Assembly: GCA_905182395.1 (NCBI GenBank)
Contig: CAJJBL010000019.1
Location: forward strand, 1-34,454
DNA: 34,454 nt
Direction: 5' to 3'
DNA from: an alpha proteobacterium SCGC AAA536-G10
GTDB taxonomy: Bacteria; Pseudomonadota; Alphaproteobacteria; Puniceispirillales; Marisalimonadaceae
Shown: piece by piece, positions 3,197 to 4,047 of the stretch
Layout of the letters: each line of letters begins with the position of its first letter
How positions within the stretch are numbered: position 1 is the stretch's first letter
Program-made: the position numbers and the translations under genes
The notes under the pieces: generated by a model
The model's input: the letters and a program-made list of their open reading frames with translations, nothing else
Database searches by the model: none
What the model was told of the DNA's origin: nothing

Positions 3197-3415
3197 TTAA
3201 AAAGGGAAGCCTGAACCATTTTTACTTTGTCTATATATTTTTAAATCTTTTCCTTTAGCAACGGGGATACAAGTAAATTGAGGAGGGGTTAAACCAACTT
3301 CACGAAGTTCCATACCAGCATTTTGTGATTGAGAAAAACATTCAGCAGCATTTTTATATCTTAATCCACTATCTATAATATCTGAACCAAAAACCCAAAG
3401 AAGTATAAATTCCAT
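3197..3415 (-). CDS. Conserved-looking small hypothetical protein
   Basis: 72 aa with AGGAG Shine-Dalgarno 6 nt upstream of ATG; non-repetitive composition with two Cys. Family not recognised. Confidence 0.5.
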   Translation of the reverse strand: MEFILLWVFGSDIIDSGLRYKNAAECFSQSQNAGMELREVGLTPPQFTCIPVAKGKDLKIYRQSKNGSGFPF

Positions 3416-3468: not shown

Positions 3469-3891
3469 TTATAAAGTTTTTAAAGTTATATTCCTTGGTT
3501 TTCTTTCTTCAGGAATTTCCCTTATAAGAGAGATTGTTAAAAGACCATTTGATAAAGTTGCGTCCTTAACATCAACATATTGCTCAAGGCGAAATTTTTG
3601 TTCAAAAGATCGTTTAGCAATACCTTTATATAAATATTGAATATTTTTATCTTCAACATCAGTTCCAATATTTCCTTTAATAGAAAGAACTCCATCATGA
3701 ACATCAATTGAAATATCTTTGTTATTAAATCCAGCAACAGCAATTGTAATTTCATATTCGTCTTCAGATATTCTAATAATATCATGAGCCGGAAAAGAGT
3801 TTTGCTTCTGAGTTGACATAGTTTCAAGTTCATTAAATAAGTTATCAAATCCAACAAACGAACGTAGTGCAAGTGTAGGTAATATAGTCAT
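3469..3891 (-). CDS. Small heat shock protein, Hsp20/alpha-crystallin family (IbpA-like)
   Basis: 140 aa; DIIRISEDEYEITIAVAGFNNKDISIDVHDGVLSIKGN ... YLYKGIAKRSFEQKFRL ... DATLSNGLLTISLIREIPEERKPRNI matches IbpA/HspH architecture. Confidence 0.95.
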   Translation of the reverse strand: MTILPTLALRSFVGFDNLFNELETMSTQKQNSFPAHDIIRISEDEYEITIAVAGFNNKDISIDVHDGVLSIKGNIGTDVEDKNIQYLYKGIAKRSFEQKFRLEQYVDVKDATLSNGLLTISLIREIPEERKPRNITLKTL

Positions 3892-3897
3892 ATTATT

Positions 3898-3978
3898 CTC
3901 CTTATAAAGCGAGTTATAGCAAACATCCCATTATGGCGATGTTTAATTTTAAGAATGTGACCCTAATGGCATCACATT
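3898..3978 (-). ncRNA. Candidate ROSE-like RNA thermometer in the hsp20 5' UTR (three successive hairpins, last one sequestering the SD)
   Basis: Minus strand: CTCGCTTTATAAGGAG (3898-3913) folds as C-G, U-A, C-G, bulged G, C-G, U-A, U-A with UAU loop, so UCGCU pairs AGGA of the SD. Upstream hairpins: AAACATC...GATGTTT (3921-3944) and AATGTGA...TCACATT (3954-3978). SD is 6 nt before the ATG of an Hsp20 gene. Confidence 0.7.
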
Positions 3979-4047
3979 ACTTAAATTTGTATTGAAAAAA
4001 AAAAATTCAAGACTTAAACTTAAAAAAATAATTTAGAGGGTTAAGTT

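Follow-up and report, generated by a model that had tools for sequence, protein, structure and literature searches.

Does the leader of hsp20 in an AT-rich marine alphaproteobacterium contain an RNA thermometer, and how does it relate to ROSE elements, the commonest known class of RNA thermometer? In the literature found, ROSE elements come from rhizobia, enterobacteria, pseudomonads, and similar bacteria. The question is raised by the window, that is, the whole stretch of 34,454 nucleotides analysed here, in which a preliminary description had read the region upstream of hsp20 as a ROSE-like thermometer. This reading is supported by the invariant pairing of the anti-Shine-Dalgarno (anti-SD) with the Shine-Dalgarno (SD) sequence, the covarying upstream hairpins, the position of the promoter, and sub-threshold ROSE matches. 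It is very likely that the 5' leader of about 95 nt acts as a ROSE-like RNA thermometer in which hsp20 translation would be blocked until heat melts the hairpin closest to the gene (hairpin III).

The hsp20 leader and its promoter

3469-3891, minus strand: hsp20 open reading frame, 140 aa, IbpA-like small heat-shock protein; presumed regulated gene of the leader
3886-3945, minus strand: sub-threshold match to Rfam ROSE_3 (RF02523), 22.4 bits against a gathering score of 43
3898-3913, minus strand: hairpin III, CUC[G]CUUUAUAAGGAG, 6 bp with a 3-nt loop; proposed thermosensing hairpin
3920-3945, minus strand: hairpin II, UAAACAUC[G]CCAUAAUGGGAUGUUUG, 8+3 bp, bulged G at 3937
3954-3978, minus strand: hairpin I, AAUGUGAU[G]CCAUUAGGGUCACAUU, 8+2 bp, bulged G at 3970
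3984-4011, minus strand: probable RpoH (sigma-32) type promoter, -35 element CTTGAA at 4006-4011, weak -10 element at about 3984-3992

The start codon of hsp20 is the ATG at 3889-3891 (minus strand). Its product was assigned to the Pfam family HSP20 (PF00011, E = 3.8e-17), and the top NCBIfam models were IbpA and IbpB, both under the curated cut-off. The element of the window, like those of its relatives, thus belongs to the 5' UTR of a (small) heat-shock gene.

As mRNA, the leader reads UUUAAGUAAUGUGAUGCCAUUAGGGUCACAUUCUUAAAAUUAAACAUCGCCAUAAUGGGAUGUUUGCUAUAACUCGCUUUAUAAGGAGAAUAAUAUG, and its minimum-energy fold consists of three hairpins, I, II, and III. The 6-bp bulged-G hairpin of the preliminary description, with UCGCU over the SD AGGA 6 nt before the ATG, was confirmed by both fold and coordinates. 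Its outer pairs are C-G, U-A, and C-G, followed by the bulged G at 3910 and the inner pairs C-G, U-A, and U-A, and this pairing (C-U-C-[G]-C-U-U / A-A-G-G-A-G) covers the SD. The anti-SD UCGCU occupies 3912-3908 and the SD AGGA(G) 3902-3898, the latter ending 6 nt 5' of the ATG. The two further stem-loops proposed upstream were present at 3920-3945 and 3954-3978. Their bulged Gs (3937 and 3970, respectively) had been absent from that description. Hairpins I and II share an outer stem, a single bulged G on the 5' side, and then CC facing GG, and the relative position of the bulged G matches that in hairpin III.

The minimum free energy of the leader was -21.1 kcal/mol (z = -1.98), which is moderately unusual. 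Two separate bulged-G hairpins of at least 5+2 bp occurred in 8 of 5000 dinucleotide shuffles, the real ones having 8+2 and 8+3 bp.

The -10 element is poor in the window and clearer in relatives (CTTGAA ... CCCATATC). Nearly all SAR116-type and order-level leaders carry a CTTGAA or ATTGAA box, in many followed by CCATAT or CCCATATC, and the arrangement stops just 5' of hairpin I. Among the three-hairpin leaders of both groups, all except L009 and L025 have TTGAA at 115-132 nt 5' of the start codon. The arrangement CTTGAA ... CCATAT corresponds to the RpoH promoter pattern. Since the sigma-32-type promoter ends at hairpin I, the transcript should contain all three hairpins. A transcription start downstream of 3913, named beforehand as a result that would speak against a thermometer, is therefore argued against by the sigma-32-like sequence 5' of hairpin I, weak as its -10 element is in the window. 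With an RpoH-type promoter and a translational thermometer, control would probably be double, RpoH acting on transcription and the thermometer on translation.

Another promoter type was observed in family f12, where the element-bearing hsp20 leaders L158, L159, L161, and L166 have a sigma-70-like TTGACA ... TATATT promoter and no CTTGAA box. It overlaps an inverted repeat of the TTGACATAATGTCAA type, perhaps a repressor site.

Conservation and covariation of the hairpins

A scan of the genome collection with the Hsp20 protein of the window yielded 35 loci, of which 31 had 70-96% protein identity and belonged mostly to the SAR116 cluster. The window and these 31 relatives gave 32 leaders, which were aligned with plain MAFFT without forcing (alignment A1). 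All three bulged hairpins were recovered by RNAalifold in these SAR116-type leaders, and 96.5% of pair cells were standard pairs. Two-sided changes were found at 10 of 23 pairs, in 73 cells. When the 3' partners were slid by 1-3 columns, only 35-50% of cells were paired, with 2-17 double changes, and none of 500 shuffles reached the observed score. A second alignment, of hairpins II and III with 39 sequences, contained 10 double-changed pairs and 96 double-changed cells compared to 10-34 with slid partners. The comparative evidence from these aligned sequences is decisive for a predicted structure beyond chance.

The changes were distributed unevenly over the hairpins. In the 32 leaders, hairpins I and II showed two-sided changes at 5 of 7 and 5 of 10 pairs, respectively, and hairpin II reached 9 of 10 in the two-hairpin alignment (helices 1 and 2 together). 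Hairpin III is near-invariant, with 99.5% of its cells paired; as the SD is fixed, hardly any covariation on both sides is seen there. Its sole variable pair among the 32 leaders changes from C-G to U-G, yielding the UCGCU and UUGCU forms, and a compensatory change from U-A to A-U occurred in 4 distant leaders. One or the other form, imperfectly paired with the SD, was present in every aligned leader. The conserved U(U/C)GCU motif that had been proposed thus holds in the relatives, its Y shifting from C to U opposite G, and the upstream hairpins covary. The pairing of UYGCU with AGGA and the bulged G, whose conservation in relatives had been in question, show no variation among the 32 leaders of SAR116 type and are found again across the order and the class. 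The single bulged G of the SD hairpin, as predicted by folding, is invariant in both leader alignments, and a bulged G was retained in essentially every hairpin of the leaders (L116 was left out of the hairpin counts). The leader also has the one to three extra hairpins 5' of the SD hairpin that are typical of the class, in the form of the covarying hairpins I and II.

The divergent FMO-like gene of the window uses the same intergenic region as hsp20, so that the conservation could in principle be that of a bidirectional promoter at the DNA level, or the hairpins could be chance products of AT-rich DNA. The compensatory changes at 10 pairs contradict this explanation, as does the low shuffle frequency, and the element is kept where the divergent gene differs. 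In L023-L031, an enolase-superfamily gene replaces the FMO-like gene as divergent neighbour, and the ROSE-like element still accompanies hsp20. The probability of a DNA-level or chance origin is accordingly taken to be negligible.

Known ROSE elements and the response to temperature

ROSE_3 was the top Rfam match of the window, at the correct position and strand and over its full length, and RF00435 gave no match in the window up to E = 10. In the scan with the Rfam ROSE models, suggested in the preliminary description as a check for ROSE and ROSE_2, each of ROSE, ROSE_2, and ROSE_3 matched hsp20 leaders of the group, with every score under its cut-off. The gathering scores of RF02523, RF00435, and RF01832 were reached neither by the window nor by any of 40 related loci. 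The leader is therefore filed as ROSE-like and not as a member of the curated Rfam families. Its predicted anatomy is that of a ROSE-like thermometer, with ROSE_3 as the nearest family. Other weak Rfam matches (PK-SPCSV, BjrC68, sau-31, and similar) were regarded as chance or unrelated.

Like ROSE_3, and in the same layout as the short ROSE-like thermometers of Pseudomonas ibpA (PMC3669281), the leader has a bulged upstream hairpin, then ACUCGCU facing AGGAG with a bulged G, an IbpA-type gene, a probable sigma-32 promoter, and an AUGACU start context. It differs from ROSE_3 by its AT-richness, an extra bulged-G hairpin, and a shorter and weaker SD hairpin. With ROSE of rhizobial hsp genes (RF00435) it shares the position in an alphaproteobacterial hsp20 leader, several hairpins including a first one with a bulged G, and U(U/C)GCU paired with the SD around a bulged G, whereas the SD helix of that model is far longer. 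The distant relative L032 scored 35.3 of the 45 bits required for RF00435. The CUCGCU/AGGAG core is also that of ROSE_2 (RF01832, enterobacterial ibpA), which relatives L003, L005, and L009 matched at 22-25 bits (cut-off 65), although its flanking helices are unlike those of the window. In ROSE-like elements as described in PMC11342760, a U(U/C)GCU motif is imperfectly paired to the SD and a bulged G is predicted. Among them, the element 5' of ABC transporter genes such as oppF, for which a crystal structure exists, has a UUGCU motif and a bulged G facing the SD as in the window, but the regulated genes differ from hsp20 (PMC11342760). In tested two-hairpin ROSE elements of Pseudomonas, the SD hairpin is thermosensory by itself, and deletion of the bulged G, either singly or combined with a second change, led to repression with induction largely lost (PMC3669281).

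The predicted free energy of hairpin III at 37 °C was -2.2 kcal/mol and fell to -6.0 kcal/mol after in silico removal of the bulged G. The consensus SD hairpins of ROSE_3 and ROSE_2 were predicted at -7.8 and -4.6 kcal/mol, respectively, and the weaker hairpin III of the window would suit a lower switching temperature. For 32 leaders and 31 control genes, SD opening was computed with ViennaRNA between 5 and 47 °C. Folding across temperatures, which had been put forward as a further check, did give an SD opening that increases with heat, in the window reaching 2% at 42 °C as against 0.1% at 15 °C. The window leader was, however, no outlier against the 31 other genes. Thermal folding was therefore rejected as independent proof of a thermometer and excluded from the evidence.

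That calculation, which cannot tell the leader from ordinary ones, would equally suit a conserved leader whose structure reduces translation or whose 5' hairpins make the mRNA more stable, with no temperature switch in the natural range. In Pseudomonas, hairpin I remains folded on heating and may contribute to mRNA stability (PMC3669281). Such a static leader is nonetheless unlikely, as the weak bulged-G pairing over the SD stays unchanged where other pairs drift, and the same element stands before rpoH and dnaK besides hsp20, which points to heat regulation.

For the preferred thermometer reading, we infer SD sequestration by hairpin III from the comparison of leaders and the temperature dependence of the leader from homology with tested ROSE elements. 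Transcription would probably start just 5' of hairpin I from the RpoH-type promoter. At normal sea temperature, the anti-SD UCGCU would pair with the SD AGGA, as conservation and comparative evidence support, and this pairing would block ribosome binding. The bulged G would leave hairpin III marginally stable, so that warming would melt it and free the SD, as in the tested elements. Hairpins I and II are more stable; they would probably remain folded throughout the working range and may aid correct folding of hairpin III and/or shield the 5' end.

Distribution across the class and wider meaning

A covariance model built from the 32 leaders (R1) matched in 62 of 151 relatives, and all examined matches with E < 0.03 were directly 5' of an Hsp20 gene, including in families with larger, GC-richer genomes. 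Matches before a flagellin gene (L122) and in unrelated sequence (L120, L123, L124) had E above 0.04 and were considered chance. The two-hairpin model (R2) was run on 386 alphaproteobacterial genomes drawn evenly from the class. Among the matches listed, 18 came from other orders and lay outside the training set; of these, 13 were before hsp20, 2 before rpoH, 1 before dnaK, and 2 before something else. As both models hold no knowledge of proteins and still reach the start codons of heat-shock genes, they provide strong functional support.

Almost all leaders have the bulged-G GCC ... GG core common to hairpins I and II, where there is no SD. The bulged-G GCC/GG hairpins might therefore be the recognition unit of an RNA-binding protein or other regulator, with SD pairing secondary. 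Hairpin I, however, is lost from many class-level leaders that keep II and III, and the first hairpin of all three Rfam ROSE models also has a bulged position, so that bulged-G hairpins belong to the ROSE layout. A regulator site is consequently seen as highly improbable compared to a ROSE-like thermometer.

HSP20 genes were also searched in sixteen related genomes in which R1 had found nothing. Other hsp20 paralogs, in L220 and L224-L226, were without the element, L222 and L223 had weak versions of it, and hairpins of the GCAUUGCUUUAAGGAGGAUGC type missed by the model were visible by eye in L219 and L221. The element thus follows a subset of hsp20 genes and not all. Hairpin II of L091-L111, which come from other families of the order, often holds a second SD/anti-SD copy (CUUGCUUU..AAGGAGA), an arrangement resembling a duplication of the thermosensor hairpin.

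The genome of the window contained one clear model match, and no ROSE element was found at its own rpoH. A redoxin-like gene of the same genome (G000:C16:12716-12782, L119; R1 28.4 bits, R2 21; FYRGLHCP motif, UUCGCUUUUAAAAGGA before the start) was considered as a second site. The hairpin is absent from the sister genome and other relatives, and no second element is therefore claimed.

Directly 5' of a diverged rpoH, a ROSE-like two-hairpin leader was observed in L167, L171, and L173 (genomes G507, G229, and G338; equal to L207, L206, and L205, respectively), three genomes of one alphaproteobacterial family. Promoters of the TTGACA-N17-TATTAT type were found in L167 and L171. In L175 (G271, 99% complete), a UCUUGCUUAUUAUAAGGAGA hairpin occurs 5' of dnaK (start at about 1566). 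The sole TIGR02392 match of this genome is RpoD-like, so it may be without RpoH.

The leaders of the window and its relatives are new members of the ROSE-like class, which is itself already known. Since they covary strongly in SAR116 and in other alphaproteobacteria with small genomes, they carry this class into bacteria that are abundant in the ocean and have few transcriptional regulators, and they supply a seed alignment missing from Rfam. They also offer a testable claim on how such cells sense warming. More tentatively, the streamlined alphaproteobacteria of the ocean (SAR116 together with several families whose AT-rich genomes measure 1.1-1.6 Mb) may use a single family of tandem bulged-G ROSE-type leaders for much of their heat-shock control, placed on hsp20, in some families on rpoH, and on dnaK in a genome without recognisable rpoH. 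RNA melting might then replace part of the protein circuit, with a weak SD hairpin tuned to sea temperatures. This wider picture as a whole is regarded as doubtful. No report of an RNA thermometer in SAR116 or of a marine hsp20 ROSE element was found among open-licence papers, and earlier predictions may exist. The Pelagibacter RNA survey (PMC2704228) mentions no heat-shock leader.

Adjoining hsp20 in the window, a 72-aa open reading frame (3197-3415, minus strand) without a Pfam match is kept in 31 of 31 SAR116 relatives at 61-99% identity. In two distant relatives, the mmgR/suhB sRNA family was matched below threshold directly 3' of hsp20 (L033:2445-2511 and L035:2432-2508).
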